Shown here: positions 29,409 to 48,663 of the stretch, piece after piece
How positions within the stretch are numbered: position 1 is the stretch's first letter
How the letters are laid out: every line of letters starts with the position of its first letter
Assembly (NCBI RefSeq): GCF_029714945.1
Contig: NZ_CP121634.1
Location: 4,795,001-4,859,000, forward strand
Source of the DNA: Bradyrhizobium sp. CIAT3101
GTDB taxonomy: Bacteria > Pseudomonadota > Alphaproteobacteria > Rhizobiales > Xanthobacteraceae
Direction of reading: 5' to 3'
Length of the DNA: 64,000 nucleotides
Position numbers and translations under genes: made by a program
Notes under the pieces: generated by a model
Database searches by the model: none
What the model was told of the DNA's origin: nothing
The model's input: only the letters and a program-made list of their open reading frames with translations

Positions 29409-30383
29409 CTATTGCTTGATATAGCCCTTGGCCTTCATCCAGGCGGCCGCCAAATTGGGCCAGTCGGAGACCGGCAGTTGGCGCGCGTCGCGGATACCGA
29501 AGCCGTGGCCGCCTTCCGCGAAGGTGTGGAGCTCGCTGGACACACCCGCCTTCTGCAGCGCGTCGTGATAGTGCATGCTGTTCTCAGGCGGCACCACGGG
29601 ATCGTCCTTCGCGACCACGATGAATGTCGGAGGCGCCTCTTTGGTGACGTGCAGGTCCGCCGAATAGTCCCTGATCAGGTCCGGCGACGGATCCTTGCCG
29701 AGCAAATTGGTGCGCGATTCCAGATGGGTCAGCTTGTCGTCCATCGACACCACCGGATAGAGCAGCAGCAGGAAATCCGGACGAGCGGACAGGCTGTCGG
29801 CCGCATCCACGGGTTCGTACACCTTCTTGGCGAACTGGGCGCCGAGGCTTGCCGCCATGTGGCCCGCCGCGGATGCACCGAGGAAGCCGATCCTGTCGGG
29901 CTGAAGGCCCCACTCCCCGGCATTCTGCCGCACCACGCGGATCGCACGCTGCGCGTCCTGCAAGGGAACATCCTTGCCGTCGACATGGCCTTCCGCCGGC
30001 AAGCGGTATTGCATCAGCAGCACCGTCACGCCGTAGGGATTGAGCCAGCGCGCCATCTCCGCGGCTTCCTTGTCGAGCACGATGCGCGAATAGGCACCTC
30101 CGGGAGCCACGATGACCGCGGTGCCGCTGGGCTTGTCCGGCACGAAGGCGGTGAGATTGGGCCTGGTGATGCCGGTGACGATACGATCAGGCCAGTAAGC
30201 CACCTTGCTGCGCTCGGTGACCGTGAGTTGTGCCGGCGATTTCTCCGACCCCGGCCCCACGCCGCCCGGCCATATCTCGATGACGTCGCGCGTTTTCAAC
30301 GGCGCCGCACAAACCGAGCCTGCCGCCATCATGCTCGCTGCCATCAAGGCCGCCACCCCTGCCGTCAAACTGTTCTTGAACAT
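29409..30383 (-). CDS. exported alpha/beta hydrolase (BD-FAE/esterase type)
   Basis: 324 residues with a signal peptide (MFKNSLTAGVAALMAASMMA..., cleavage after VCA). Motifs: VIVAPGGAYSRIVLDKEAAE (oxyanion region), nucleophile GFLGASAAGHMAAS (G-x-S-x-x-G), FIVVAKDDPVVPPENS (acid) and EGGHGFGIRD (His). This pattern fits acetyl-xylan or feruloyl-type exported esterases. Start at 30383; 19 upstream residues precede the signal and are rejected. Confidence 0.88.
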   Translation of the reverse strand: MFKNSLTAGVAALMAASMMAAGSVCAAPLKTRDVIEIWPGGVGPGSEKSPAQLTVTERSKVAYWPDRIVTGITRPNLTAFVPDKPSGTAVIVAPGGAYSRIVLDKEAAEMARWLNPYGVTVLLMQYRLPAEGHVDGKDVPLQDAQRAIRVVRQNAGEWGLQPDRIGFLGASAAGHMAASLGAQFAKKVYEPVDAADSLSARPDFLLLLYPVVSMDDKLTHLESRTNLLGKDPSPDLIRDYSADLHVTKEAPPTFIVVAKDDPVVPPENSMHYHDALQKAGVSSELHTFAEGGHGFGIRDARQLPVSDWPNLAAAWMKAKGYIKQ

Positions 30384-30448
30384 GTCGTAGCCCACCACAG
30401 GTTCGTTGGTATGAGCGTTGAATCTATTTGACGTTGCCATCCATAGAT

Positions 30449-30517
30449 TTACGGTGACAGTGCGCTCAACTCACACTCGTGCTGCCATCGGAGTCAAGCG
30501 CACCGTCACCGCAATTC
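30449..30517. repeat. palindromic repeat, GTGACAGTGC(A/G)CT family
   Basis: The left half TTACGGTGACAGTGCGCTCA (30449 on) and an imperfect inverted right half (30491-30517, GCGCACCGTCACCGCAATTC) flank an 18-bp spacer. It sits in the gap upstream of the HD-motif gene. It is the leftmost copy of the family seen across 30-39 kb. Confidence 0.65.
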
Positions 30518-30603
30518 GGGAAACCACAGCGGCGGCACCTTCTGTTACCGGACTGTCATTGTCCGATGCTAGCGCTGCGCGTCTTTTCAGAAGGAACCAG
30601 CTG

Positions 30604-31899
30604 ATGCGCCTCATGCTTCCCGTCGTCGCCGCTGCCGTGCTGGCAATTTCCGCCCCGGCTTTGGCCGTTGACCAGACCGTGCTTGGCGCGGGCAACGCGG
30701 CGGCAGGAGAGCTCGCCGCCCGTTCGCCGCTGGTGACATCAGCTCTGGCGCGCATCGAGCAGGTCATCGCCACCATCGACGACGCCAAGCTGAAGGCCGC
30801 GACCCGCGACGCCCTGTTCAACCCGAACACCTGCGTCACCCATCGCGCTAACCTCACTGCCTCCGACAAGGACAAGATTATCGCCGAGCTGACCAGCCAA
30901 GGGCTGATCAACGAGGCCAACGGCAAGGCATTCCCGGGCGGCGCGGTGACCGGCGTGTTTCCGCCGCTGCGCGACGACGGCACCGCCTGCCCGCATTTGC
31001 CGATGGCCTGGGGAGCTGCACCCGGCGGCGCATTCGCCGGCCACCACTCCTATCCCGGCGGCCTGCCGGTGCATGAATCGTTCAACCTGGCGAGTGCCAT
31101 CAGCCTCAGCGAGAACTATCGCCTCACCGTTGGCCTGACCGGCGAGGACGGTCTGCCGCGGGTGGCGCCGCTGCCGGGTTCGCGCGACGCGGTCAACCGC
31201 TCCGATCTCGTCATGAACAACGACGCCATCATCGCCGCCCCGATGTTGCACGACTGGGCCAAGCCGATCGTGTTCCAGTGGAATGCCGACGGCAGCGAGT
31301 TCGCCGAGTTCAACTTCGGCGGCAATGGCGAGACCGACGCGGATGGCGCCAAGGGCGACAGCCGCACCGGCGCCCATCACATTCTCGGCGTCGCTGAATC
31401 CATGGCGCGCGACCTGCCCGCGCCGTTCATCGTGATCCAGGCCTCAGCCCACACCGCGCCGACGCTCGGCAAGGAATACATGGCGGTGAACTGGCTGCGC
31501 GCTGCGGCGATCATTGCCCATGTCGACCCGATCGCACGCGGCTATCTGGTGAAGGATGCCGACGGCCATTTCCGCCTGCCACCGGCACGCACCACCGACA
31601 ACATCGACTTCCTCGCCGCCAAAATCGGCAACCTCTCGGCCGAGACCGTGATCCACAATCTGTCGGATGCGGACTACATCTTCACAGGCCCGGCGGTGAC
31701 GGCGTCAGTGGCGATCCTCACCAAGCTCGCGCCCGACTACGGCTTCGACCCCGCGGATGCCGCGAAGTTCAACAACGGCTTCCGCAACCCGGCGCTGTCG
31801 TACCTCAGCGCCGAGCGGATTCTGATCCGCTACAACCACGACGGCCTGACCGGCGTGCGGCGCGATCTCGACGCGCTGAAGAAAGCGAAGGCGATCTGA
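30604..31899 (+). CDS. exported protein with HD-phosphohydrolase-like motifs
   Basis: 431 residues. A signal peptide (MRLMLPVVAAAVLAISAPALA) is followed by FAGHHSYPGGLPVHESFNLA (His 147, 148, 157), MLHDWAK (His-Asp 216-217, Lys 220), a second HH pair at 258-259 in GAHHILGVAESMA and IQASAHTAPT (His 283). The H...HD...H order resembles the HD superfamily (metal-dependent phosphohydrolases), which is rare outside the cytoplasm. AGGA precedes the ATG. I do not recognise a named family; the HD assignment is inference from motifs. Confidence 0.75.
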   Translation: MRLMLPVVAAAVLAISAPALAVDQTVLGAGNAAAGELAARSPLVTSALARIEQVIATIDDAKLKAATRDALFNPNTCVTHRANLTASDKDKIIAELTSQGLINEANGKAFPGGAVTGVFPPLRDDGTACPHLPMAWGAAPGGAFAGHHSYPGGLPVHESFNLASAISLSENYRLTVGLTGEDGLPRVAPLPGSRDAVNRSDLVMNNDAIIAAPMLHDWAKPIVFQWNADGSEFAEFNFGGNGETDADGAKGDSRTGAHHILGVAESMARDLPAPFIVIQASAHTAPTLGKEYMAVNWLRAAAIIAHVDPIARGYLVKDADGHFRLPPARTTDNIDFLAAKIGNLSAETVIHNLSDADYIFTGPAVTASVAILTKLAPDYGFDPADAAKFNNGFRNPALSYLSAERILIRYNHDGLTGVRRDLDALKKAKAI

Positions 31900-31980
31900 G
31901 GCAGGCCGGTCCTTTGCGGGCGCCAGCTTAGGCCGGGCCCCTCGGCAATGACGGTGATAGAGGGGCACGCTCGCTCAACA

Positions 31981-32049
31981 CGTCATTGCGAGCGGCTTGT
32001 CCGCCATAGCTCGAAGAGCGACGGCGGAAGCGAAGCAATCCGGGCTTGG
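31981..32049 (+). repeat. CGTCATTGCGAGCG dispersed palindromic repeat, copy 1
   Basis: Starts CGTCATTGCGAGCGGCTTGT and ends GAAGCGAAGCAATCC, with an internal hairpin TCCGCC...GGCGGA. The reverse complement of 48664-48729 aligns along its whole length with scattered substitutions. Confidence 0.75.
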
Positions 32050-32086
32050 CCCCTAGATTACGCCGACCGTGCGCTAAGGCTCCACG

Positions 32087-32115
32087 CGTTTCGGTGACAA
32101 TGCACTCAACTCACT
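32087..32115 (+). repeat. degenerate GTGACAGTGCACT repeat
   Basis: GTTTCGGTGACAATGCACTC followed by AACTCACTC matches the family consensus with few changes. Confidence 0.5.
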
Positions 32116-32272
32116 CATGCCGCCGCAAGGGGCGAACGGCGAGCGCGCTGCGCCGCTGGACTGCACCTGCCGAATGACACAAGATAGTTCAGTGTCGGTG
32201 CACCACATCGTCCGGCGGTCAGCGTGAGTTCAATGCACCGCAATAAAAATCAGAAAACGGCAGGGAAGAACA

Positions 32273-33904
32273 ATGCAGCGAAAAAGCAATGTGGCGCTTG
32301 ATGGTGCGATGGCTTGCCTGGCTCTGGTCGCGGCCATCATGGTCGTTGCGATCTCGCCGGCAAGCGCCGACGATTCAGCCAACCTATCACCTGCACTCAA
32401 ATGCGCCGACCTGACCGGCTGGAAGATGCCGGGATCGACGACATTGATCACCAAGGCCGAAATGGTGCCGGAGGCGCCGCCGGGGACCGTGCAGCCGTCG
32501 CCGCCCGCGCCGGCCACCGTATCGGTGGCGCTGCCGCCGAACTGCCGCGCGGATGGCGTGATCGATCAGCGCGTGGGGGTCGAGGGCAAGTCCTACGCGA
32601 TCGGCTTTGCCATCGCCCTGCCCGATCGCTGGAACGGCCGGTTCTTGTTTCAGGGCGGCGGCGGTTTGAACGGCTCGATCCGGCCGCCGCTGGGTTACCA
32701 GGCGGCCGGCGAGGTGCCGGCGCTGGCGCGCGGCTTTGCCGTGGTCTCGACCGATAGCGGTCATCAGGGCGCGGTGTTCGATGCCTCTTTCCTGAAGGAC
32801 CAGGAAGCCGCGCTCAACTTCGCCAATTCATCCGTCGGCAAGGTGACGATTGCCGCCAAGGCGATCGTCGCGCATTACTATGGCCAGCCCGCCAAACGTT
32901 CCTATTTTACGGGGTGCTCGACCGGGGGCCGCGAGGGCATGCTGGCATCGGCGCGCTATCCCGAACAGTTCGACGGCATCGTCGCTGGCGCGCCTGCGAT
33001 GCGCACCGGTAACTCCAATATCGGTCTCGCCTGGGCCAACGCTGCCTTCAGCCAGGTCGCGCCGAAAGATGCGTCCGGCAAGCCGGAGCCCGCCAAGACT
33101 TTTTCCGCGGGCGAGCGAAAGCTGATCACGAACGCGATCCTCGAGGCCTGCGACGCCAGAGACGGCGTCAAGGATGGCCTGATCTTCGACCGCAAGGCCT
33201 GTCAATTCGATCCCGCGGTCCTCACCTGCACGGGCGACAAGACGGATGGCAAGACAGATTCTTGCCTGGCGCCGCCGCAGGTCGATGCCCTCCGGAAAGC
33301 TTTTGCCGGACCGAAGAATTCACGCGGCGCGCAGGTCTACCCGCCGTTCCCGTGGGACAGCGGCGTCGCAGCCGAAGGCGTTTCCATTCCCGGCATCCTG
33401 ACATCAGGCGCGCTCAGTCCGGTCGGACCGCCTGTTTGGGACCGCATCGACGTCGATCAACTCGAAGACCGGGTCAACGCGAGCGGGCTCGATCGCCTCA
33501 CCAACACCGCCTACTGGACCAACCTGTCGAGCTATTTCGGCCATGGCGGCAAGCTGCTGTTTTACCACGGTGTGAGCGATCCCTGGTTCTCGGCTGAAGA
33601 CACCGTGAATTACTACGAGCGCATGGCGGCGGATTCCGGCGGCATGGAGATGGTGCGGGAGACATCGAGCCGCGCCTTCCTGGTGCCCGGCATGGGTCAC
33701 TGCTCGAGCGGCGCAACGCTCGATCGTTTCGATCTCCTCAGCGCGGTCGTGAACTGGGTGGAAGACGGCAAGGCGCCCGATGCGGCGGTGGCGACGGGAC
33801 CAGCCTTCCCCGGCCGCAGTCGGCCGCTTTGCGCCTATCCGCAACACGCACAGTACAAGGGGCAAGGCGATCCGGAGAGCGCGGAGAGTTTTGAGTGCAA
33901 GTAG
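32273..33904 (+). CDS. tannase/feruloyl esterase family protein
   Basis: 543 residues. Signal peptide about 1-32 (ending ASADD). The nucleophile motif is GCSTGGREGMLASARYPEQF, the family's G-C-S-T-G-G; the paired cysteine expected near the catalytic His is in VPGMGHCSSG (about 475-484), and the Asp lies in YHGVSDPWF. These enzymes cut ester bonds of gallates, ferulates or related aromatic esters. AGGGAAG precedes the ATG. Substrate not determinable. Confidence 0.9.
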   Translation: MQRKSNVALDGAMACLALVAAIMVVAISPASADDSANLSPALKCADLTGWKMPGSTTLITKAEMVPEAPPGTVQPSPPAPATVSVALPPNCRADGVIDQRVGVEGKSYAIGFAIALPDRWNGRFLFQGGGGLNGSIRPPLGYQAAGEVPALARGFAVVSTDSGHQGAVFDASFLKDQEAALNFANSSVGKVTIAAKAIVAHYYGQPAKRSYFTGCSTGGREGMLASARYPEQFDGIVAGAPAMRTGNSNIGLAWANAAFSQVAPKDASGKPEPAKTFSAGERKLITNAILEACDARDGVKDGLIFDRKACQFDPAVLTCTGDKTDGKTDSCLAPPQVDALRKAFAGPKNSRGAQVYPPFPWDSGVAAEGVSIPGILTSGALSPVGPPVWDRIDVDQLEDRVNASGLDRLTNTAYWTNLSSYFGHGGKLLFYHGVSDPWFSAEDTVNYYERMAADSGGMEMVRETSSRAFLVPGMGHCSSGATLDRFDLLSAVVNWVEDGKAPDAAVATGPAFPGRSRPLCAYPQHAQYKGQGDPESAESFECK

Positions 33905-33920
33905 GCAGATGGCGGGCTAT

Positions 33921-34556
33921 TCACCGCTGCTCGGTGGCGATGCGCAAACCCAAAGCAATCAGGACAGTTCCAGTCACGCCCTCCACGAGGCGACGTACGG
34001 TCGGCCGCTGAAGCGCATGCCGCACCTTGTGGATCGCTGCGGCATAAAATGCGAGCCAGACGAAGGTCATCCCTGCAAACACAATTCCAAGAACGAGCAG
34101 TGTCGCAAAGGTCGAACCACCTGTCGGCGCGAACTGCGGAAGCAGGCTTGTGAAGAAAACAGCCATCTTGGGATTGCCGAGATCACTGATGAGCCCCTGC
34201 CTGAAGGCGATCCAGGGGCTTACGCGGCCATGCGCGTGGTTCTCCATCGCGCTGTCGGAACCTTGCTCCGGTGGCCAAAGGGCTTCGTACAACGCGATGA
34301 TGCCCAGATAGATGAGATAAGCGGCCCCCAGATACTTGATCGCAAGAAACAGTGGCGCCGAGGCCACCAGGAGAGCAGCAAGCCCGACGCTGGTCGCCAG
34401 CGCCCAGACCATCTGCCCCACTGCGATGCCAGCCGCAGTGCAAATCCCGCCAGTCTGCCCTGCTAAGAGAGTGCTGCGGATTGTCGTGGCCGTGTCGGGC
34501 CCCGGCGTGACAATGACGATGATCGACGTCCCGATGAATGCAAGAAACGATAACAT
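33921..34556 (-). CDS. LysE family translocator
   Basis: 211 residues with six predicted transmembrane helices. The N-terminal FIGTSIIVIVTPGPDTATTI matches the LysE/RhtB signature (TPGPD), followed by AGIAVGQMVWALATSVGLAALL and FRQGLISDLGNPKMAVFFTSLLPQF. Such proteins export amino acids or related metabolites. Start at 34556 with GGAGGAG upstream; the longer frame adds 63 residues that carry no family similarity. Confidence 0.92.
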   Translation of the reverse strand: MLSFLAFIGTSIIVIVTPGPDTATTIRSTLLAGQTGGICTAAGIAVGQMVWALATSVGLAALLVASAPLFLAIKYLGAAYLIYLGIIALYEALWPPEQGSDSAMENHAHGRVSPWIAFRQGLISDLGNPKMAVFFTSLLPQFAPTGGSTFATLLVLGIVFAGMTFVWLAFYAAAIHKVRHALQRPTVRRLVEGVTGTVLIALGLRIATEQR

Positions 34557-34616
34557 GCCGCGCCGCTCCTCCAAGTTGCCGTCGTATAATACGCTCTGCC
34601 GCGGTTCTGATGCTCC

Positions 34617-34644
34617 GGAATTACGACGGCAGTGCACTCGTAGC
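34617..34644 (+). repeat. GTGCACT repeat-family half copy
   Basis: GGAATTACGACGGCAGTGCA followed by CTCGTAGC: the outer half of the palindromic family, with ACGGC in place of GTGAC. It lies just upstream of the LysE gene. Confidence 0.45.
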
Positions 34645-34695
34645 TCCCGCGTCGAAGCCCTCAAGGTGACGACGAGATACCATATTAACGACTGG

Positions 34696-34720
34696 CCCCC
34701 AGTTGTGCGGGGGTCTTTTT
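34696..34720 (+). terminator. intrinsic terminator, + orientation
   Basis: CCCCC (34696-34700) AGTTGTGC GGGGG (34709-34713) TCTTTTT. No + gene ends here; it abuts the stop of the minus-strand membrane protein and may be left over from an earlier gene arrangement. Confidence 0.5.
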
Positions 34721-35442
34721 CACGGCGAGGCTTTGAGAAATGCACCTATCGCAGTAGCAATACTACTGCACCCCAAGACAACGCCTTTGGGCGATTCCGC
34801 AATTCTCCGCACGATTAGCTCTGCGCAGAACACAACACATTCCATGATTGTGATCACCAACAGCGGAAGTGTCGTAATCGCTGAAAACGTGAATAGCGTC
34901 ATAGTGAATGGAAACGCCCAATCAAGGAAAATACTAAATCCCGTACTCAATGGCGGGTTGCTCATCACACCGCCAAGAGCGAGATAAGTTGCATACAGGA
35001 AGAGAGTGATCGCAATAGCAAAATAGCCGATCGCCCAAATGGGCGCTGTTCGTGAAGATCTACTGAGAATATGGCGCTGCATCAACCATCCAGTCATGCA
35101 GCCGGAGAGCGCGCCAACCGCTAGTTGGCCAATTGAGCGCAACGCTTCAGACACCCAGTCGAAGTCCGAAGGATCGACAGTACCTCGTAAAAACAGAGCG
35201 AATGCGCTCGCGATCGATATGCCGGAAAACCAGATCCGAAAGCTTGGCCGCAACAGCCAGCCGATGAGAGAAAATTTTTTTGCGTCAGAGAGCCAATCCC
35301 AGACACGGAGCGTCCAATTATCAAGCTTCGATTTTTGCGCTTCGCTAAGAAAAATGTCGAGAAGTCCGAGAGCCCCCGTCAGGACACCCGAAACGATTAG
35401 AACGGTTGCCACGCCAGCCACCTCGCTACCTGAGGTTAGCAT
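34720..35442 (-). CDS. polytopic membrane protein, unknown function
   Basis: 240 residues with five or six hydrophobic segments (about 10-30, 70-85, 105-120, 133-155, 172-200, 225-236). The codon composition is more AT-rich than the surrounding genes, as for most of 34.6-39.7 kb, suggesting horizontal acquisition. No clear ribosome site before the ATG. Family not recognised. Confidence 0.7.
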   Translation of the reverse strand: MLTSGSEVAGVATVLIVSGVLTGALGLLDIFLSEAQKSKLDNWTLRVWDWLSDAKKFSLIGWLLRPSFRIWFSGISIASAFALFLRGTVDPSDFDWVSEALRSIGQLAVGALSGCMTGWLMQRHILSRSSRTAPIWAIGYFAIAITLFLYATYLALGGVMSNPPLSTGFSIFLDWAFPFTMTLFTFSAITTLPLLVITIMECVVFCAELIVRRIAESPKGVVLGCSSIATAIGAFLKASP

Positions 35443-35507
35443 ACACTAAAACTGCTGGTCGAGAAGCTAACAGCCGCAGCTCTGATACCGCAGTCGTCGT
35501 GGAGAAG

Positions 35508-35530
35508 ACGGTGACAGTGGGCTCAATCCC
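35508..35530 (+). repeat. GTGACAGTG repeat-family fragment
   Basis: ACGGTGACAGTGGGCTCAAT followed by CCC, a partial copy overlapping the 3' end of the hydrolase gene. Confidence 0.45.
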
Positions 35531-36173
35531 GACGGTCGCCCTCCTCGGCTTGCGGCCTCGGTCCACGTCTCGTCCTGAGCAGCCACTCCCGTGCGATTTG
35601 CCTATCCTCCGATGTGATCGCATGTCCTGTCGAGAGCACGTGATGTGTCACGACAGCACCCGCACGCGTCAATCTCTCGGCCAACCTCAAACCGTCACCG
35701 CGCGATCGGCGCGCATCATCCCGTCCATCGATGATCAGGACGGGCGTTCCCTGCATCATCGCCGGCAGTTCACGCGACAATGGCGACAGCGGTCGAAACA
35801 GAATGGCTCCACCGAGCAGCCCGGGCCTGGTCAGAAGCAGCGCGGCGGCCATGATCGCGCCGTTCGAAAAACCCACTGCGATCGGTGCCGTGAACCCGTG
35901 ATGCGCGCGACACGCATCAAGGAAATTGGCCAGCTTTGAAGCGCGCTCGGCTAGATCAGCTCCATCGATCGAGCGGTCCGGATGTCGATGGAAGAATGCG
36001 AAGCCGCCCTCGATGTCTACGGTTCCCCGGACACTGAGGGTCGACATCCCGGGAGCCAGGTCTCGGGCCAACGGCAGCAGGTCAAGTTCGGTGCCGCCGG
36101 TGCCGTGGAGCAGCAGAAGTGGTGCGTCGATGGGATCGGCTCCTGGGGCAAAGAGGTGAAATATCTCGCTCAT
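35523..36173 (-). CDS. alpha/beta hydrolase (phospholipase/carboxylesterase type)
   Basis: 216 residues, cytoplasmic. Motifs: PLLLLHGTGGTELDLLPLAR (oxyanion), GFSNGAIMAAALLL (Ser nucleophile, about 114), IIDGRDDARR (Asp) and VLSTGHAITSED (His). Short Abhydrolase_2 architecture like YpfH or viuB-like esterases. GC-rich, unlike its AT-rich neighbours. The last bases overlap a repeat fragment. Confidence 0.85.
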   Translation of the reverse strand: MSEIFHLFAPGADPIDAPLLLLHGTGGTELDLLPLARDLAPGMSTLSVRGTVDIEGGFAFFHRHPDRSIDGADLAERASKLANFLDACRAHHGFTAPIAVGFSNGAIMAAALLLTRPGLLGGAILFRPLSPLSRELPAMMQGTPVLIIDGRDDARRSRGDGLRLAERLTRAGAVVTHHVLSTGHAITSEDRQIAREWLLRTRRGPRPQAEEGDRRD

Positions 36174-36194
36174 GCGGCCAGTATGAGTGATCCG

Positions 36195-36310
36195 AGTTAC
36201 GGCGGTAGTGCACGCATCATCGCCACGCGGCCGCCGAACCGACGGTGTGAATTGAGTGCACTGTCACCGTAATTCCGGTGTCAATTTAGTGCACTGTCCC
36301 CGAAATTTCC
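36195..36310. repeat. palindromic repeat, about 80 bp plus an extra half copy
   Basis: GAGTTACGGCGGTAGTGCAC (36195 on) to AGTGCACTGTCACCGTAATT (36255-36274), enclosing GCATCATCGCCACGCGGCCG and AACCGACGGTGTGAATT. A second half copy follows at once (AATTTAGTGCACTGTCCCCG, 36284-36303). The interior closely matches that of 38458-38548, so the two are copies of one element and they bracket 36.3-38.4 kb. Confidence 0.75.
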
Positions 36311-36341
36311 ACGGCCCACAAGGATTCTGGGCAAGAGCCTA

Positions 36342-36674
36342 TTACTTTAAGCCCAGCTGCCGGCAAATGGGTTGGATGGTGGTGAGTGCGTCAGCCGCAT
36401 ACAGCACTTTCACTCCCACCATGTAAGACCCGTCTGGGCAATCTGCCTCACCTCCATTTCGCGCAGCGATAGCCGGAGGGTTTGTGACAGTGCTGCCCCA
36501 CTTATTCTCCTGGAGAGCCAGAATCGCCCGATAGGAAGCACTTGCCTTTTCATACTGTGCGTTCAGCGCAAATCCAGCTACCACCGCGCCGACAAGGAGT
36601 CCCCCGATCGCGATCAATACACGGATGCTCGCTTCAGCGTCGCCAAGTGCCTTCCATACTTCCCTCACGCCCAT
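36342..36674 (-). CDS. membrane-anchored protein, 110 residues
   Basis: MGVREVWKALGDAEASIRVL, one transmembrane helix (about 20-38), then a predicted periplasmic domain with two Cys (ADCPDGSYMVGVKVL, IQPICRQLG). Start 36674 chosen over GTG 36680 because GGGGG lies 5 bases upstream. It is divergent from the AlbA_2 gene (about 80 bp apart) and within the repeat-bracketed block. Family not recognised. Confidence 0.6.
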   Translation of the reverse strand: MGVREVWKALGDAEASIRVLIAIGGLLVGAVVAGFALNAQYEKASASYRAILALQENKWGSTVTNPPAIAARNGGEADCPDGSYMVGVKVLYAADALTTIQPICRQLGLK

Positions 36675-36755
36675 GCTCACCCCCTGAGGCTACAGGCATC
36701 TATTTTACGCACGGGAAAGCTGCTATTGGCAACGTTTCAACCGCGATATTTGATC

Positions 36756-37697
36756 ATGCTAAACCTTTCAACGGAAGAACAACTCAAAGCCCTTGTCGAC
36801 GATGTGGTGAAGGAGAGCCTTCACATCGAATACAAGGCCTCAGATGCTGTTGATAAGCGGGACGACCGAAAGAAGAAGGAAATAGCCCGCGATGTTTCGG
36901 CCTTCGCCAACGCTGATGGCGGACAGATCATCTATGGCATGAAAGAGAACAAAGACCAGGAGCCTGACGGTCTCGACGCCGGCCTTGACCCACGGGAATA
37001 CCCAGAAAGTTGGTTCGAGCAAATCCTTCAACAGCACGTGATGCCCCCGCTCAAAGCACGTCCTTACCATGTCCCCTTATCGAGCGGCCGCGTTGCTGTG
37101 GTGATCGACATACAGGCATCGAGCGGAGAGCCTCACCAAACTGATGGTCGGTACTATCGGCGCCACAACTTCAACAGACTCCCGATGGAGCACTACGAAG
37201 TAAAGCAGATGTTCTATCGGACCACGACACCGGATCTATTTGCAGAACTGTCCTTATCTCGCGGCGACAACACCGAAATAGCCTATAACTTTCAGGAAGA
37301 GTACACCCAACCCATTTCTATCGGTGTCGTTCTCGCCAACAAAAGTGCTCAACCAGCTTTTTACTCTGTTTTACAGATTGGAGTTCACACCAGTTTGGCA
37401 TTGCTGCCCGCCGACCCTTGGAATCAGACTGGAATTGAAGGCGAAGGGATCGCAGCGCGCAGATGGCTAACGCGATCAATTTCCTCGCCACCTTCGTTGC
37501 CAATATTCAAGGAGGTCGATCAACGGCTATCTTCTATCATGTTTAGACTTCAGGCTCGCGTCTTAGGTGGGGCCAATCGCTTCCCGGTCACCGTCAAGAT
37601 CATGAGCCCAGGCTTTTTGAGTGAAGTTGAATGGACATTGCACCAGGAAGGTCAGCATCTCCGAATACAGCGGCCCGGCCACCTGTTATCGCGCTAG
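36756..37697 (+). CDS. AlbA_2 (Schlafen-type) domain protein
   Basis: 313 residues. The N-terminal about 130 residues fit the AlbA_2/Schlafen core: ESLHIEYKASD (E-x-x-E-x-K type), KKKEIARDVSAFANADGGQI IYGM and RYYRRHNFNRLPM. This fold binds nucleic acids and in several families acts as a nuclease or regulator; it is common in defence islands. The C-terminal half has no recognised domain. It lies 30 bp upstream of the DUF2971-like gene, likely an operon. No clear ribosome site. Confidence 0.8.
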   Translation: MLNLSTEEQLKALVDDVVKESLHIEYKASDAVDKRDDRKKKEIARDVSAFANADGGQIIYGMKENKDQEPDGLDAGLDPREYPESWFEQILQQHVMPPLKARPYHVPLSSGRVAVVIDIQASSGEPHQTDGRYYRRHNFNRLPMEHYEVKQMFYRTTTPDLFAELSLSRGDNTEIAYNFQEEYTQPISIGVVLANKSAQPAFYSVLQIGVHTSLALLPADPWNQTGIEGEGIAARRWLTRSISSPPSLPIFKEVDQRLSSIMFRLQARVLGGANRFPVTVKIMSPGFLSEVEWTLHQEGQHLRIQRPGHLLSR

Positions 37698-37727
37698 CTG
37701 ACGAACGCTGACTCTAGCGGAGTTCCT

Positions 37728-38453
37728 ATGGACGAAGCAGTAAGCACCCAATTGGACCGCAACTTATGGCGCTACATGAGCTTTACCAAGTTTCTGTGGC
37801 TCATCCAGAACCGGAAACTGTGGTTCTCGCGCGCAGACAAGCTTAACGACCCATGGGAGCTTGCCCTCGCCGGCGATCAGCTCGAACACGTCATCCTACG
37901 TAGGCCTATTCGGTCGCTCCAAAGTGATGTTATTGAAGAGCCAATCCTAGATCGCGCCCGCCGCATCAATAAGCTATGGCGGGAGACGACCTACATCAGT
38001 TGCTGGTCGAGCTCTGACCACGAGTCTTACGCTCTCTGGCGGATCTTCTGCGGCTCAACTGACGGTGTGGCCATCTGCGCACCAAGTTACAACCTCACCC
38101 GCGCCTTCCAGGGTGTCAGTTGGTATCCCGTCACTTACGATGCCCCGGGCACCGAGATAAGAACGCCCAGCCCAACGGGACTCGCTACAAGAAAGCGGCT
38201 TATGTTCCAATATGAGCGCGAAGTTCGGGCCATCATCACAGATGGAATGATCGGTACACCCGTTACGTGGCACGAGTTCGGCTGCACATGCGACTTTGAT
38301 CCCGAGTTGTTAATAAGCTCAATAGCCGTGCACCCGGAAGCCGACAGTACCTTGATGGATGCCGTCGTTCGTGTCGTGAGAGATTATACCCCAAAGCTGT
38401 CCGACAATGTCGCGTGGTCGAAGATGCGAGAGCCGCCGCCTCTGCTCAAGTGA
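37728..38453 (+). CDS. DUF2971-like protein
   Basis: 241 residues, soluble. N-terminal LWRYMSFTKFLWLIQNRKLW FSRADKLNDPWE and central TYISCWSSSDHESYALWRIF CGSTDGVAI match the pattern of DUF2971 proteins (W/F-S-x-x-L-N-D-P, S-W...E-S...L-W...Y/F-x-G). GGAGTTCCT precedes the ATG. Function of the family is unknown. Coupled with the AlbA_2 gene inside a repeat-bracketed block; a joint role is inferred. Confidence 0.75.
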   Translation: MDEAVSTQLDRNLWRYMSFTKFLWLIQNRKLWFSRADKLNDPWELALAGDQLEHVILRRPIRSLQSDVIEEPILDRARRINKLWRETTYISCWSSSDHESYALWRIFCGSTDGVAICAPSYNLTRAFQGVSWYPVTYDAPGTEIRTPSPTGLATRKRLMFQYEREVRAIITDGMIGTPVTWHEFGCTCDFDPELLISSIAVHPEADSTLMDAVVRVVRDYTPKLSDNVAWSKMREPPPLLK

Positions 38454-38457
38454 CTAA

Positions 38458-38548
38458 AATTACGGTGACAGTGCACTAAACTCCACGCATCATCACCGCA
38501 CGGCCGCCCAACAAGACATTGCGAATTAAGTGCACTGTCACCGTAATT
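38458..38548. repeat. palindromic repeat with perfect 20-bp ends
   Basis: AATTACGGTGACAGTGCACT (38458-38477) and its exact reverse complement (38529-38548) flank 51 bp. The interior (CCACGCATCATCACCGCACG, then GCCGCCCAACAAGACATTGC) matches the copy at 36195. It starts 5 bases after the DUF2971-like stop. The size and perfect terminal inversion resemble a MITE or a REP-type palindrome; no transposase lies in the window. Confidence 0.85.
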
Positions 38549-38578
38549 CCTACCGGTCTCCCAAAGCATTCCCCTGAG

Positions 38579-38644
38579 AGTTACGGTGAAAGTGCACTCA
38601 ACTCACTCGCGCTGCCACTGGGGATAGGTGCACTGGCACCTCCC
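38579..38644 (+). repeat. third adjacent copy of the palindromic family
   Basis: GAGTTACGGTGAAAGTGCAC then TCAACTCACTCGCGCTGCCA, with a degenerate inverted end (GGTGCACTGGCACC). It abuts the stop of the HEPN-motif gene. Confidence 0.6.
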
Positions 38645-39225
38645 TAGTTGTGCAGGCACGGCCGCGTGATCTTTGGCGGCTTTGAAAATACGAAAGCGGT
38701 CATCGCTATATCTCGCCGCCGTCGATCCCATGCTTGATACGCTGTTTCCAGGTAGATGAAGCATTCGCGGACATAATCGCCATATGCCTCCTGCTCTTTA
38801 AGCAGCGAAACACCGAGATATCGTGGATGGTTCATAACCCGTGTGATTGGACCAACATGGTTTGCGGCCAATTGCTCTAGGTTCACGAAAAATAGGCCAT
38901 CGTTACTTGTCCAGCCCCATTGGCAATGGGCATATTGGTTTCGCAGATCACGGCACCAATCCAAATCGGCCAGACATTCTTTCATATCAGCTTCCAGCCC
39001 GGCATCAGCGAACGCCGGCAGCAGAGTCTGGCGGGCTAGCTTGATGCGCTTCTCTGCGGGCATCCGTTCGAACAGGCGTTTAACTGGAAGGTCGATGTGT
39101 CGTTCGACTGCGACGAGACAGGACAACAGGCCAACTTCAAGCTCACCGTATCCCACTAATATCTTCCCGATGATCTTCCCCTGCTCTTCGGCCTGACCAG
39201 GCTCGAAACATGGCATTAACGGCAT
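38644..39225 (-). CDS. putative HEPN-motif protein
   Basis: 193 residues, predicted all-alpha. CRDLRNQYAHCQWGW contains R95-N-x3-H100, the R-x4-6-H motif of HEPN RNases. Earlier helices (GYGELEVGLLSCLVAVERH, MPAEKRIKLARQTLL) fit a four-helix bundle. Start 39225 chosen because AGGA lies 8 bases upstream. Flanked by palindromic repeats on both sides (38579 and 39251). HEPN identity and RNase activity are inferences from the motif. Confidence 0.65.
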   Translation of the reverse strand: MPLMPCFEPGQAEEQGKIIGKILVGYGELEVGLLSCLVAVERHIDLPVKRLFERMPAEKRIKLARQTLLPAFADAGLEADMKECLADLDWCRDLRNQYAHCQWGWTSNDGLFFVNLEQLAANHVGPITRVMNHPRYLGVSLLKEQEAYGDYVRECFIYLETAYQAWDRRRRDIAMTAFVFSKPPKITRPCLHN

Positions 39226-39250
39226 CACCGGCTTCCTATCTGGACGGCTG

Positions 39251-39318
39251 GATTACGGTGACAGTGCTGGACTGCCCCCCTTGGGTGAGACACGGTAATT
39301 GCAGTGAACAGTGGGGGT
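39251..39318 (+). repeat. rightmost GTGACAGTG repeat copy
   Basis: GATTACGGTGACAGTGCTGG begins at 39251; a degenerate piece CACGGTAATTGCAGTGAACA follows at 39291. It marks the right side of the HEPN-motif gene. Confidence 0.55.
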
Positions 39319-39332
39319 GGTCACATGACCAC

Positions 39333-39449
39333 TCACTTCCGTAAGCGCAATCCCACAAACAGAACTACGATCAAAAACGCAGCAACAATTCCCGTCGTTC
39401 CTTGCGCACTCAGGCTCAAGAACCCCAGCGTGACTTCAAGTTTATCCAC
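39333..39449 (-). CDS. single-pass membrane microprotein, 38 residues
   Basis: From a GTG at 39449: MDKLEVTLGFLSLSAQGTTG then a strong transmembrane helix and GLRLRK at the end. AAGGAG lies about 9 bases upstream. It is read opposite to a longer, low-quality + frame. Its place beside possible nuclease genes makes it worth noting. Confidence 0.5.
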   Translation of the reverse strand: MDKLEVTLGFLSLSAQGTTGIVAAFLIVVLFVGLRLRK

Positions 39450-39783
39450 GACACAGCTCTCCTTTCAGAAAATTCTGAAGAGCGAATCGTTCTTGTCAGG
39501 GGGCTTAAGTAAGGAGGCACAGATTCCAAATTTGAGCAACGCACCGTCAGAGCTAAAATAAATACACAAATAACTTCAAGTACTTACGTCATTAGAGGAA
39601 TCGAGCAGTCGGCAATTTTCCAAACGCTTGTCACCGCTATGTCGATAAAGCTTTTGAATCTATTCGTTTTTTGTGTCTCGTTTCGAAGGGTAACGTGACT
39701 AGATCCGTGACATCCATAGAAGCGCGCGGGACAGGGCCTCAAGGTCCTTCAACATCGCCACCCGAGCTTATGCCCACCGTGTC

Positions 39784-40221
39784 CTAACAGTTTCCGAATT
39801 GGCTACGCGCTTGCGCTTTTATGCGAGAGATCGAAGCTCGCCTTTGACCGTTGCTGGCAATCTTACCAGCAATCGCAAGAACGGGAGCACCCGGACCATC
39901 GTAAATAATCTCAGCCTCATGTGGCGAGACGATTTGCAGGACGATCAAATGATTGCAGTCCCCACGGAATGCGACGCTGCGACCGGCTGTAATCTTAATC
40001 TCGACATCACCACGAGTTTCGCACCTTGCATCATGACCTTTGTTGGATGGGGGATAGAGATCAAACTTGAATATCTCTTGTGCGACGACTTCGCCAAGCG
40101 ATCCGACTAAATGCCCATCCGGTGTAAACGGACGTCCCGGATATCGCTCCTCCAACTCTGCGACCGCTTCGTAGATTTGCGCAATCGCGCTCGGCAGTTG
40201 CACACGCATTCCAGGCTTCAT
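39784..40221 (-). CDS. PD-(D/E)xK nuclease-like protein (DUF6998-like)
   Basis: 145 residues. GHLVGSLGEVVAQEIFKFDL, GHDARCETRGDVEIKIT and SVAFRGDCNHLIVL follow the order E...D...E-x-K seen in restriction-endonuclease-like folds (Glu about 46, Asp about 63, Glu-Ile-Lys about 75-77). It resembles the DUF6998 family. GGGAGGAACATC precedes the ATG. Nuclease function is inferred from motif order only. Confidence 0.7.
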   Translation of the reverse strand: MKPGMRVQLPSAIAQIYEAVAELEERYPGRPFTPDGHLVGSLGEVVAQEIFKFDLYPPSNKGHDARCETRGDVEIKITAGRSVAFRGDCNHLIVLQIVSPHEAEIIYDGPGAPVLAIAGKIASNGQRRASISRIKAQARSQFGNC

Positions 40222-40302
40222 GATGTTCCTCCCGTTCTAGGCTTAGCCCGATGCGTCGCTTTCAAAACTAGACTACGCCCGGGCTCCCCTCACGCACATT
40301 CT

Positions 40303-40333
40303 CCCCCTCCCCCGCCCCCTGCCCCTCGCCCCC
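40303..40333 (-). other. G-rich tract with quadruplex potential (minus strand)
   Basis: Five runs of four or five C on the + strand separated by single or double bases, so the minus strand has five G-runs. It lies between the divergent nuclease-like and glyoxalase genes. Confidence 0.6.
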
Positions 40334-40404
40334 ATTTCCTGCTATCTCCTCCCTCGCCATCCCGGCCCAAAGCAAAACCCCATCCATCCAAGGGAGCAAC
40401 AACC

Positions 40405-40857
40405 ATGCGTTATCTCCACACCATGCTGCGCGTGCGCAATCTCGATGTCGCGCTGAAGTTTTACCAGGATGCGCTGGGGCTGAAGGAGGTGCGGCGGATC
40501 GAGAACGACAAGGGGCGCTTCACGCTCGTGTTCCTGTGCTCGGCCGACGATCTCGAGGCGCTGAAGACGCAGCCGCAGACGCGCGGCGCGCCGTTGGTCG
40601 AACTCACCTATAACTGGGACGAGGAGACGTATGGCGAGGACCGGTTCTTCGGCCATCTCGCCTATGAGGTCGACGACATCTACGCCACCTGCGCGAAGCT
40701 GCAAAAGGCCGGCGTCACCATCAACCGGCCGCCGCGCGACGGCAACATGGCCTTCGTCCGCTCGCCCGACCTGCACTCGATCGAGATCCTGCAGAAGGGC
40801 GAGCCGAAGGCGCCGGCCGAGCCGTGGGCGTCGATGCCGAATACCGGCCACTGGTAA
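40405..40857 (+). CDS. gloA: VOC family protein, lactoylglutathione lyase type
   Basis: 150 residues. Glyoxalase I-like: MRYLHTMLRVRNLDVALKFY (metal His 5), VELTYNWDEETYGEDRFFGH (Glu 56 and His 75 region) and SPDLHSIEILQKG (Glu 123). It converts the glutathione-methylglyoxal adduct to S-lactoylglutathione. AAGGGAG lies before the ATG. The Asp/His ligand set looks complete for a short bacterial GloA. Confidence 0.87.
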   Translation: MRYLHTMLRVRNLDVALKFYQDALGLKEVRRIENDKGRFTLVFLCSADDLEALKTQPQTRGAPLVELTYNWDEETYGEDRFFGHLAYEVDDIYATCAKLQKAGVTINRPPRDGNMAFVRSPDLHSIEILQKGEPKAPAEPWASMPNTGHW

Positions 40858-40928
40858 GGCTTTTACCGTAGGAACCAGCGCCCACCCGGCGCGTTCTCCC
40901 TTCAACAAAGCGATTGGAGGAGGACGCA

Positions 40929-41009
40929 ATGGGACGAGGAATATTGCTGTGGCTGCTGGGTGTGCCTATCCCGGTGATCATTCTGTTGTGGCTGTTCTTC
41001 GGTCATTGA
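40929..41009 (+). CDS. 26-residue membrane microprotein
   Basis: MGRGILLWLLGVPIPVIILL followed by WLFFGH. GGAGGAGGACGCA gives an excellent ribosome site, and an intrinsic terminator follows at 41065, so this tiny gene is well supported. Function unknown. Confidence 0.7.
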   Translation: MGRGILLWLLGVPIPVIILLWLFFGH

Positions 41010-41064
41010 TGTCAGCGCAAACGCAATTTGCGTTTGTCGCGCGCGTGCAGCCTCAGTGCTACGG

Positions 41065-41091
41065 AAAGCTCCGCCCCCGGCGGAGCTTTTT
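41065..41091 (+). terminator. intrinsic terminator
   Basis: AAAGCTCCGCC (41065-41075) pairs perfectly with GGCGGAGCTTT (41079-41089) around CCC, followed by TT. It ends the microprotein transcript. Confidence 0.88.
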
Positions 41092-41181
41092 GCATGAGGG
41101 GCTCACGGCAATGCGCATCGCTCCAGGCTGCGAATTCCGCTATCACCCGCGCGACGTCAAAAAACGCTGCGGGAGGATTTC

Positions 41182-41820
41182 ATGTCGGACCAAAAACTGA
41201 CGATCTGGGGCCGCGCCAATTCGGTCAACGTGCAGAAGGTGCTGTGGTGCCTGACCGAGCTCTCCCTGCCCTACGAGCGCATCGACGCCGGCATGGCCTA
41301 CGGCAAGACCCGCGAGGCCGGCTATCTCGCGATGAACCCCAATGCGCGCGTGCCGACGCTGGTCGAGGGCGATTATGCGCTGTGGGAATCCAATTCGATC
41401 ATGCGCTATCTCTGCATGGCGCATGGGCGCGGCACGCCGATCTATCCGGAGCCGCCGAAGAAGCGCGCCGGCGTCGACCGCTGGCTCGACTGGACGCTGT
41501 CGATGGTGCAGCCGGTCGATCGTCCGGTGTTCTGGGGCATCGTGCGCACGCCGCCCGCCGAGCGCGACATGATCAAGATCCAGAGGGATGCCGATGCGGC
41601 CGCCGAGGTCTGGGCCATCGCGGACCACCATCTGGCCTCGCGGACCTTCATCGAAGGCGACCAGTTCACGATCGCCGATATCGCGATCGGTTGCTACGCA
41701 CGGCGCTGGCTCGGCGTCGAGGGGATCACCCGTCCGGCGCAGCCGAACCTGACGCGGTGGCTCGCCGCGCTCGCCAAGCGGCCCGGATTTGCGCAGCACG
41801 TAGCGCCGCCGATGTCGTGA
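41182..41820 (+). CDS. glutathione S-transferase family protein
   Basis: 212 residues. N-terminal thioredoxin-fold domain (LTIWGRANSVNVQKVLWCL, NPNARVPTLVEGDYALWESN SIMRYL with the ES glutathione-binding pair) and C-terminal helical domain (about 90-212, GDQFTIADIAIGCYARRW with the N-capping box). GGGAGGATTTC precedes the ATG. Detoxification or dechlorinase-like activity cannot be told apart. Confidence 0.92.
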   Translation: MSDQKLTIWGRANSVNVQKVLWCLTELSLPYERIDAGMAYGKTREAGYLAMNPNARVPTLVEGDYALWESNSIMRYLCMAHGRGTPIYPEPPKKRAGVDRWLDWTLSMVQPVDRPVFWGIVRTPPAERDMIKIQRDADAAAEVWAIADHHLASRTFIEGDQFTIADIAIGCYARRWLGVEGITRPAQPNLTRWLAALAKRPGFAQHVAPPMS

Positions 41821-41950
41821 GCCGCTGACGCGGCTTAAGCCGTGGTGAGAGCACGTTGAATCGCGCGGGCCGCGCAAACAGCCCGCATCCGACGTCTCTC
41901 TTGACGGCTACTGTGCATGGGGTTGTTTTCGCGTTTTTGTTGAGGGCGCG

Positions 41951-42118
41951 TCAGCGCCAGCCGCGCTCGACCATCACGACGACCACGATCAGCACCAGCG
42001 TGACCACCGCGGTGGCGAGCTTGGCGGTCCATGAGAGCCCGCGTCCGACCCACCACAACAGCGCGCAATACATCAGCGCGGGGACGAGCAGATCGAGCCG
42101 CAGCAGGTCCTGAGACAT
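41951..42118 (-). CDS. two-helix membrane microprotein, 55 residues
   Basis: MSQDLLRLDLLVPALMYCAL continues to a first helix ending at WWVGRGLSW, then a second (LATAVVTLVLIVVVVMVERG). It lies directly upstream of a minus-strand exported small protein gene. Function unknown. Confidence 0.6.
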   Translation of the reverse strand: MSQDLLRLDLLVPALMYCALLWWVGRGLSWTAKLATAVVTLVLIVVVVMVERGWR

Positions 42119-42125
42119 CTGTCCC

Positions 42126-42368
42126 TCAGCGCCCGGTCACGGTGTCGACCCTGACCGAGCCGCCGATCTTCACGCAGGTGCCCTCGACCATCATGAAGCC
42201 CCGGCCATAGGCGGCGCAGGCATTGGCCTTGCTGGCAGCCCCCGTGGCGCTCCTCAGCGGCAGGGTCTTGCCCGACTGGGGCTGCTCGGTCGGCGGCAGG
42301 CGCAGGGTCTCGGCTCCGGCTGCGGAGGTCGTCGCGAGAGCGATCAGGACGAGGACGGAAAGGCGCAT
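42126..42368 (-). CDS. exported protein resembling a porin N-terminus
   Basis: 80 residues with a signal peptide (MRLSVLVLIALATTSAAGAE). The C-terminal ACAAYGRGFMMVEGTCVKIG GSVRVD closely resembles the N-terminal beta-strand of rhizobial Omp2b-type porins (C-x-x-Y-G-x-G-F...C-x-K-I-G-G), yet the gene ends right after it. It may be a free-standing stub of a porin gene or a small periplasmic protein. Start 42368 has AAGG upstream. Confidence 0.65.
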   Translation of the reverse strand: MRLSVLVLIALATTSAAGAETLRLPPTEQPQSGKTLPLRSATGAASKANACAAYGRGFMMVEGTCVKIGGSVRVDTVTGR

Positions 42369-42414
42369 GCCCGCCTTGTAACCCGGACCCGGGCCTGGCG
42401 CTATCGGGCGGCCG

Positions 42415-42669
42415 TCAGAGGAACTTGATGCCGGCCGACTTGCCGCGGCGCCAGACCACCTGGCAGTTCCGTCCGGTCCGGGCATCGCGCGCAAACGCCA
42501 TCCGGATCACGCCCGGCAGCTGGCTCGCATCCTCGTCCAGCGTGATCTTGGCGCCGGAGGCCGAGATGTCCTGGACCAGGCAGTGCCGCGCCGCGAATCC
42601 GCCCTCGAGCGTGATCCAGGCGTGCTGCGACAGCATTTTGCGGGCTGCGCGCTTCTTGGGCTGTGGCAT
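42415..42669 (-). CDS. PilZ domain protein
   Basis: 84 residues, a single PilZ barrel: RAARKMLSQHAWITLEGGFA, then CLVQDISASGAKITLDEDA (the D/N-x-S-x-x-G c-di-GMP motif) and VVWRRGKSAGIKFL. The N-terminal RxxxR signal is only partly kept (KKRAARK), so c-di-GMP binding is possible but not certain. Confidence 0.85.
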   Translation of the reverse strand: MPQPKKRAARKMLSQHAWITLEGGFAARHCLVQDISASGAKITLDEDASQLPGVIRMAFARDARTGRNCQVVWRRGKSAGIKFL

Positions 42670-42898
42670 CGGCGAAAGATATCTCCCGCCCCAGCGCTAG
42701 CCCAGGGAACCCTAAGAAACGGTTGAAATCGCCGCCCGCATGATCCCGGGGCGGGCTATCCACCGGGCCCAAAAGAGCGTTCCGGAACGGCTTGCCCACG
42801 GGCCGAAAGGCCACTATACGTTCGCCCGCTGCAAGCCGCCGGGCACGACTCGGACCGGCCAGCGGGCCTGTCGCCACATGCGGCCCGGCCTTGCGTTT

Positions 42899-42973
42899 GC
42901 TCCCTTCGTCTATCGGTTAGGACGCCACCCTTTCACGGTGGAGAGAGCGGTTCGATTCCGCTAGGGAGCGCCA
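42899..42973 (+). tRNA. tRNA-Glu (UUC anticodon)
   Basis: Acceptor GCTCCCT/AGGGAGC, D-arm with TCTATCGGTTAGGACG, anticodon stem CCACC/GGTGG around CTTTCAC giving anticodon TTC, T-arm GCGGTTCGATTCCGC, discriminator G and encoded CCA (42971-42973). Confidence 0.96.
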
Positions 42974-42991
42974 AGCAGCAGCCCCCATCCC

Positions 42992-44641
42992 TCACCGCTC
43001 GCCCAGGAAGCTCTCGCGCAACTTCGTGCAGGCGAGCCCGACGGTATAGACGTGGATCCCCTCGATCACGCAATGGTCCGGATGGAGCGCCAGCAGCCCG
43101 ATCGAATTGTCCTCGTTCAGTTCCCACGGTGAGCGGACGATGACGCAGGGATAGTCCGCGGCGAGCTTGGCGTAGCTGGTGGCGCGAAAATTGGTCTTCA
43201 GGACGTGCGTGTAGGTGTTGTGGTCCAGCAGGGCGACCGCGAAGGCGTGCTCATAGGCGACCGAGAACCTCTCCCGCATCGCCTGGTCGCCCCAGAGCTG
43301 CAAGGTCATGTCCCAGCCATGGTTCATGTCGTTCTCCGGCGCTCCCACGAACATGCCGGAGACGTTGGCGCAGGCCGGCCCCGCCGCGACCACGGCTTTC
43401 GAGAGCCTGGCCCCGATCGCATTCGAGGCAGAGGCCTGCAGCGCGACTGTCCTCGCGTCGATCAGCGTCACCGCGGCCGTCACGGCACATAGGCCGCCCG
43501 CAAGCAGGCTCAGCGCCGCCGACGGGATCGCGGGGGCCAGGCGCCTGATCTGCACCACGACCAGGACGAGGACAACGCCCGTCAGGGCCCACGACGCCAT
43601 CATGTAATGCAGCGCGAAATGCTTCGACGTCGCCACGAGGTAGGCCGCAAAGACCAGGGCGGCAGCGCTGAGCGTGAGGCTGACCGGATCGCGCCAGTCG
43701 CGCGTCCTGATGCACCAGGCCAGCGCCGCAGCAGCGGCTGCGATGTAGGCACCCGCCGCGAGCGGTCCGGCCGTGATGATCTCGCGCATGTTCGACCAGA
43801 ACGTCGCGAAGTCGATGAATCCGGTCTCGCCCTCGCCGTAATGTCCCTTGTGGGTCGCGATTTGCACCAGCCATCCGAACCCGCGCGTGATCGTTCCGGG
43901 ATTAAAGACGAGACTGAAGGCAACGAAGCCGATCGCCCCGGTGAGCAAGGCGGCGACGAACGCTCGCCGGTTTCTGAGCAGGCATACCGCGAACAGCGCC
44001 TGCGGCAGGTAGAGATATTTGGTCGCGAAGCCGAGCGCGAAAATCAATCCGGACACGACGCCGAGGCTGGTCGCCGGCGGTCGCGCGTCGAGCGCAGCCT
44101 TGAGCACGATCGCCATGCCGAACAGCGCGATCGCGACCATGAGGCTTTCCGGGGCGAGTACCGTCTGAAAATGAAACGCATCGGGATGAACGAACGCGCC
44201 CGCCTGAAACAGCATCGCGGCAATGGCACTGCGCGTGGACCGGCCGACGATGAGCCCGCCTGCCAGCAACGCACCCGAGAGCACCAGCGCCTCGCAAGTC
44301 CGCGCCGCGAAGGTGATCGCATCGTAGTGCTTGAGCCCGAACGCAACGATATCGTCAGGCCGGGCGACCAGGGCCCAGCCCCTGATGACCAACTCGACGA
44401 GCAGCGTCGTCGTCGTTCCCGGATGATCGAATTTCAGCGAGCCATATCCGGCCGCCGCCACCAGGCCGTTCATGGTGTAGGCCGATTCCGGATCAACCTG
44501 GACACCCCAGACCGCCTGCCAGGCCGAATAGAGCAACGTCGCCGCCAGATACAATATCGGCACGATCAGGATCAGCGCTGTTCTGACCCTCCCGCTCACG
44601 TGCGTGTCGGGAAAAGCGCGATCGGCTGACATCATCGGCAT
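42992..44641 (-). CDS. polytopic glycosyltransferase-like membrane protein (ArnT/PMT type)
   Basis: 549 residues with about 11 transmembrane segments. An N-terminal helix is followed by a periplasmic loop (VDPESAYTMNGLVAAAGY, with acidic residues) and GSLKFDHPGTTTTLLVELV, as in GT39/GT-C enzymes that use lipid-linked sugars. A C-terminal soluble domain of about 140 residues follows. It begins 20 bp after the methyltransferase-glycosyltransferase gene, so they are likely co-transcribed. GT-C assignment is inferred from topology. Confidence 0.75.
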   Translation of the reverse strand: MPMMSADRAFPDTHVSGRVRTALILIVPILYLAATLLYSAWQAVWGVQVDPESAYTMNGLVAAAGYGSLKFDHPGTTTTLLVELVIRGWALVARPDDIVAFGLKHYDAITFAARTCEALVLSGALLAGGLIVGRSTRSAIAAMLFQAGAFVHPDAFHFQTVLAPESLMVAIALFGMAIVLKAALDARPPATSLGVVSGLIFALGFATKYLYLPQALFAVCLLRNRRAFVAALLTGAIGFVAFSLVFNPGTITRGFGWLVQIATHKGHYGEGETGFIDFATFWSNMREIITAGPLAAGAYIAAAAAALAWCIRTRDWRDPVSLTLSAAALVFAAYLVATSKHFALHYMMASWALTGVVLVLVVVQIRRLAPAIPSAALSLLAGGLCAVTAAVTLIDARTVALQASASNAIGARLSKAVVAAGPACANVSGMFVGAPENDMNHGWDMTLQLWGDQAMRERFSVAYEHAFAVALLDHNTYTHVLKTNFRATSYAKLAADYPCVIVRSPWELNEDNSIGLLALHPDHCVIEGIHVYTVGLACTKLRESFLGER

Positions 44642-44661
44642 CGAACCGTGGCTTCCACGGC

Positions 44662-46113: not shown

Positions 46114-46374
46114 GACAGGACACAGGCCTCGTCACGCCTGCTCGAACGATAATCTATCGCGACATCAAACAACGCAGCGCGAGGCGCCACAGACACAAAA
46201 AAACACATAAAAACAGTTCCCCCGAACCTGCTGCTACTCAAGCGCAACTGCAGCGGGACTTCAACAGGAACGTCATTCGGCGGGCCAGAATTTAAGCCCC
46301 CAATCCGGCGACGATCGAATGCTGCCGAGCCGCGCCACATCGGCGCGAAGGTCAACGAGCGCGCTGCGGATTCC

Positions 46375-47451: not shown

Positions 47452-47663
47452 TTAGGCACAATACGGCACGCCATGGCAATCTATCGAAATGGGTCCGTCC
47501 GCGGACCGGCCTTGATCGCTCGGGAAATCGGGCACCCGAATGATGCGCCGGCAGAATCTGTCCTCCGGCATGAACCTCCCCGGCCCTCAACTCCTACCAA
47601 TGTCCGAAGGAACCGCCTTTCCGACCGCGATGGCGTCACATCTTGAAGGACCGGGCTCGGCCC

Positions 47664-48650: not shown

Positions 48651-48663
48651 CAGCAAACGCGTG

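Follow-up and report, generated by a model that had tools for sequence, protein, structure and literature searches.

Does the AT-rich block at 34602..40287 of the analyzed stretch of the Bradyrhizobium sp. CIAT3101 chromosome represent one compact defence system with defined ends, or a collection of genes that arrived separately? The stretch, hereafter the window, comprises 64,000 nucleotides (G000:C1:4795001-4859000, where G000 is this genome of 9.37 Mb), and a preliminary description of it had proposed a compact inserted, defence-like island bracketed by copies of a palindromic repeat. Comparison within the genus demonstrated that the block is strain-specific cargo located between flanks that are kept in some relatives. 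The strain specificity and the nucleic-acid-enzyme-like content of the proposed island stood, and the notion of one system with ends at the repeats did not. We lean, with moderate confidence, towards the reading that the block, rather than forming one system, gathers defence- or toxin-like single genes that were acquired independently in a hypervariable hotspot littered with repeats.

The edges were given by the break in collinearity with the same-species genome G230, which aligned at 95% over window positions 29416-34601 and at 98% over 40288-49693. Between these flanks, G230 carried a different stretch of approximately 5 kb in place of the block, encoding a resolvase-domain fragment (serine resolvase), an ABC substrate-binding protein, a second HEPN-motif protein (recognized by eye), and unknowns; the block was therefore rejected as core synteny. 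The block was not syntenic in the other relatives; G153 alone carried, at the corresponding position, a relative of one of its genes, the hydrolase gene. The AT-richness described earlier was confirmed by a GC content of 0.543 against 0.640 in the remaining window, although the hydrolase stretch (35500-36250) was host-like at 0.62-0.63. A DNA search with the whole block across 249 genus genomes, G000 included, returned some match in 195; among the matches listed, none outside G000 exceeded 610 bp and most spanned 50-120 bp. The longer listed matches fell on two genes, the hydrolase gene (74-82% identity, with one weaker match at 65%) and, in its N-terminal half, the AlbA_2 gene (72%). A plasmid search yielded a single 71-bp match, and promoter and terminator scans were near chance.

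The site is flanked by a tannase-like/LysE gene pair on one side and a VOC-family gene on the other. Among 33 loci, which were hand-picked together with some further loci from search listings and are thus a non-random sample, the tannase-VOC pair was present in eight, with differing cargo and intervals of 6503, 5872, 967, 903, 871, 1071, 2713, and 3656 bp; in the other 25 the pair was not seen, in part owing to contigs or retrieved stretches that ended. The shared flanks and differing cargo of these eight loci therefore identify a turnover hotspot. Repeats (two mismatches or fewer) lay within the interval in four of the eight, and a ninth pair, in G288, enclosed about 3.5 kb with four exact repeat copies.

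The genes of the block failed to co-occur as a set in the genus, and a co-inherited four-gene system was rejected on this ground. Across the 257 genus genomes used for protein-relative and repeat searches, DUF2971-like, HEPN, and DUF6998 relatives, several of them partial matches, occurred in 9, 20, and 9 genomes, respectively, this genome included. Beyond this genome, only G096 appeared in two of the three lists (HEPN and DUF6998), with the genes on different contigs. AlbA_2 was found in nine of 60 relatives, again counting this genome, and its list shared G004 with the DUF2971-like list, the two positions there being separated by more than 1 Mb. When the surroundings of 17 other DUF2971-like loci were searched with a small profile, one AlbA_2 match was returned, in a protein also matching type I specificity subunits. 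PADLOC matched one of seven scanned proteins, to a candidate family alone, and reported no named anti-phage defence system.

That match concerned the DUF2971-like protein (37728..38453, plus strand), which was assigned to the candidate family PDC-S31 (E 7.9e-16, reported without a score cut-off; best stretch, residues 7-126). At least 65 homologs of the protein were found. The protein itself had no Pfam match at E<=1, and 36 of its 52 aligned homologs matched PF11185 (DUF2971) at this threshold, the best at 4.4e-4. Structural comparison of the predicted model gave DarT and Tpt1, both ADP-ribosyltransferases (ARTs), as best matches. R15, E163, and E165 were conserved and may correspond to NAD-binding and catalytic positions of DarT. 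The model thus points to an ART fold, with ADP-ribosylation as the likely chemistry. A search of PDB sequences with the 37728 profile gave no match, a Pfam scan of nine window proteins revealed neither a macrodomain (DarG) nor NADAR, and in the literature searched one paper names DUF2971 and none names PDC-S31. The best-scoring other match within the genus was 31% identical, and viral contigs contained one DUF2971-like relative.

The gene directly upstream (36756..37697, plus strand) encodes a 313-aa SLFN/AlbA_2-domain protein (PF04326; E 1.4e-14, 55.1 bits against a cut-off of 25.3) and ends 30 bp before the DUF2971-like gene on the same strand. A bolder idea is that DUF2971/PDC-S31 proteins could be an unrecognised DarT-like clade of nucleic-acid ADP-ribosyltransferases without macrodomain antitoxins, controlled by the upstream-encoded AlbA_2 protein in a new ADP-ribosylation toxin-antitoxin or defence pair; we regard this extended proposal as distinctly doubtful. 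In L240, a relative of the AlbA_2 gene adjoined a gene with a HEPN motif recognized by eye, and in L239 another adjoined a RES-domain gene; together with the G109 adjacency described below, these cases favour a link of AlbA_2 to toxin-like genes in general.

The third gene (38644..39228, minus strand) encodes a putative HEPN-family protein, with RNA cleavage as its likely chemistry. Its Rx4H motif, RNQYAH, was invariant in all 48 aligned homologs and reads RNKYAH in a more distant relative in L202; the fold assignment is less firm than that of the 37728 protein. Two HEPN relatives were found on viral contigs. In L203, L206, and L207, the HEPN-family gene overlaps or nearly touches a preceding frame of approximately 400 aa, a possible partner; by eye, the L203 and L206 frames look alike, and a similar frame was seen by eye in the G153 hotspot (L250 3456-4718). 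The fourth gene (39784..40221, minus strand) encodes a DUF6998 protein (Pfam, E 1.3e-38) that appears PD-(D/E)xK-like. An E...D...(E/Q)xK core was recognized by eye in the alignment, with (E/Q)xK in seven of eight relatives and E and D in six, the exceptions being L224, which ends before E/D, and L231, a spurious frame. All four gene calls of the preliminary description were borne out, and the expected kinds of fold or motif were found, for AlbA_2 and DUF6998 by sequence alone.

Such genes could also be what is left of prophages or larger integrative elements that have mostly decayed and have no present function, an explanation that we consider possible though unlikely. Consistent with it, the G230 cargo contained the serine resolvase fragment, integrase- or phage-like genes were recognized by eye close to at least four of the 13 HEPN relatives that came from named genomes, and the AlbA_2 relatives of G109, G118, and G223 were split over two frames. 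However, the four main reading frames of the block are open at full length, the Pfam scan of the nine proteins detected no integrase, no tRNA was located at the block edges (the closest is at 42899), and no direct repeat spanned both edges among the 20 repeat families listed.

We then consider whether the palindromic repeat delimits an element. The repeat is real, with 10 matches (three mismatches or fewer) in the window against 0.02 expected, and 15 copies (two mismatches or fewer) in the 9.37-Mb genome against none for the reversed pattern; its 18-mer occurred (one mismatch or fewer) in 189 of 257 genus genomes, while the reversed control gave one match overall. The block contains a full palindromic copy at 36195..36276, whose hairpin was no better than shuffles (z -1.4), and another at 38457..38550, with 26-nt arms and a strong hairpin (z -7.3). 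Half copies are located at 34621..34638 (plus strand, degenerate, three mismatches), 36288..36305 (minus strand, two mismatches), and 38581..38598 (plus strand, one mismatch). Further copies at 30449, 30497, and 32089 lie outside the block. The left edge, where the break with G230 lies 20 bp from the degenerate half copy, is the only one near a repeat; the rightmost copy, at 39253, belongs to a second, widespread repeat and stops about 1 kb short of the right edge. The repeats were therefore rejected as island ends.

The palindromes are instead RAYT-associated elements in AT-rich DNA. In related genomes, 11 distinct RAYT-type ORFs were found by an MPNH-type motif (13 rows, with two places listed twice). 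Repeats stood on both sides of nine of the 11, inverted in eight of these nine, in a set of loci part of which was chosen for having paired repeats. One RAYT-type ORF that was checked proved to be Y1_Tnp, and 3 of 30 automatically taken repeat loci (L074-L103) contained a RAYT-type ORF. Median GC at these 30 loci was 0.596, below the 0.646 of 120 chunks taken across 12 genomes (p 2.4e-13). An interpretation as integron-like attC sites was abandoned, since RAYT genes lie between inverted pairs spaced about 730 bp from each other. The sole Y1_Tnp gene of this genome showed 30% identity across part of its length, with no such repeats nearby, and no cognate RAYT for the repeat was found in this genome.

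These data bear on the possibility that a RAYT-type transposase moves single genes between two repeats as mobile cassettes, which we judge quite improbable. Repeats directly flank the HEPN gene of the window, that of L208 in G260, and one in L070 of G062 whose motif was recognized by eye; elsewhere in G000, at 7.99 Mb (L029 7388-9819), they bracket a RelA_SpoT gene (PADLOC PDC-S33, 1.4e-90) together with an unknown gene. However, among 11 other listed loci that carry a HEPN gene from this family, repeats stood beside the gene in L208 only, and intergenic insertion is usual for REP-type elements anyway; besides the lack of a cognate RAYT, no locus pair was found in which homology ends at the repeats. 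A test of whether HEPN genes are enriched near repeats was weak. The weakest candidate, a single multi-gene defence system (AlbA_2, ART, HEPN, and nuclease) moving as a unit between repeats, could draw on four adjoining nucleic-acid-enzyme-like genes and on the 30-bp spacing of the AlbA_2 and ART genes on one strand, yet is highly improbable given the scarcely overlapping genome lists, genes on both strands, and a right edge without a repeat.

One observation weighs against separate acquisition of the genes: in G109 (L202), the split AlbA_2 frame immediately precedes a HEPN gene that belongs to the family found in the block. Under the preferred reading of independently acquired genes, those with separate histories would accumulate between the tannase-like/LysE pair and the VOC-family gene. 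Three of them would be likely intracellular effectors, namely the ART-fold DUF2971/PDC-S31 enzyme, the HEPN ribonuclease, and the PD-(D/E)xK-like protein. The DUF2971/PDC-S31 gene is probably cotranscribed with the AlbA_2 gene, whose product may restrain or guide the enzyme. Each effector would remain quiet until phage infection or stress and then modify or cut host or phage nucleic acid; we infer a defence role for them. The palindromes would be non-autonomous repeats of the RAYT transposase family; they would not define the island, and by adding homology and breakpoints they may speed cargo exchange. If the ART reading is true, the domain of unknown function DUF2971 and the candidate defence family PDC-S31 gain a testable chemistry. 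The locus also cautions that an apparent repeat-bracketed "island" in this genus can consist of RAYT repeats scattered through AT-rich DNA instead of being an element with ends.

The remaining features of the block are the following. A 240-aa membrane protein predicted by eye, with no family over cut-off, is encoded at 34720..35442 (minus strand), and a small protein with a predicted N-terminal membrane segment (by eye) at 36342..36680 (minus strand). Between them, an alpha/beta hydrolase (35523..36173, minus strand) belongs to Abhydrolase_2, its best NCBIfam match, MhqD, being below cut-off. Its G153 relative (80% DNA identity over 604 bp) lies 2.7 kb from the VOC gene of that genome, with gene order and orientation matching those in the window, and the remaining relatives are on other contigs or without placement. 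Because of this same-spot relative and its host-like GC, the hydrolase gene may have resided here for longer than its neighbours, and we propose no defence role for it. The second repeat, approximately 60 bp (39252..39310, plus strand), resembles the palindrome arm in its first part. Among the matches listed, it was mostly 84-93% identical in dozens of genus genomes; it also occurred beside or inside the same hotspot in G119, G154, and G288, and had no Rfam match in three loci tested. Outside the block, another repeat cluster of this genome, at 7.87 Mb (L028 7625-8900), lies near an antitoxin-like gene of the SocA/Panacea kind, which a partner frame overlaps. Window positions 39333-39449 (minus strand) could encode a 38-aa single-helix membrane peptide, part of whose DNA is 81% conserved in G133. 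Positions 39614-39694 are 78% identical to G000:C1:9367503-9367583, a stretch outside the listed ORFs, some 0.9 kb short of where the chromosome record ends, and without an Rfam match; similar matches recur in many genus genomes and are possibly origin-proximal sequence.

Compared with known systems, the palindromes resemble RAYT elements, REPtrons, and TIRtrons, the last being RAYT genes with long terminal inverted repeats, in that inverted copies stand beside RAYT genes in related genomes. Such TIRtrons, and REP families in Bradyrhizobium, have been described (PMC3733652). The palindromes differ in their low copy number, in the missing cognate RAYT, and in that, by the definition given there, no GTAG tetranucleotide was seen at the stem foot in repeat sequences read by eye. 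The predicted model of the 38644 protein resembles HepS, a HEPN protein of the Gifsy-1 prophage (PDB 9oij/9oik), and HepT/MntA in helical fold and size, and the protein carries an Rx4H motif; its profile gave no HepS match among PDB sequences, and searches for HepS with prophage or tail-tip and for HEPN with Gifsy-1 found no paper in the literature covered. DarT of DarTG and Tpt1/KptA are the best structural matches of the 37728 model, and the protein has conserved R and ExE-type residues; it differs from them in lacking PDB sequence and Pfam matches and a macrodomain or NADAR among the scanned neighbours. It is linked to PDC-S31 and DUF2971 by its HMM match and by the many homologs that match DUF2971, although it falls in a diverged subclade known mainly from metagenomes.
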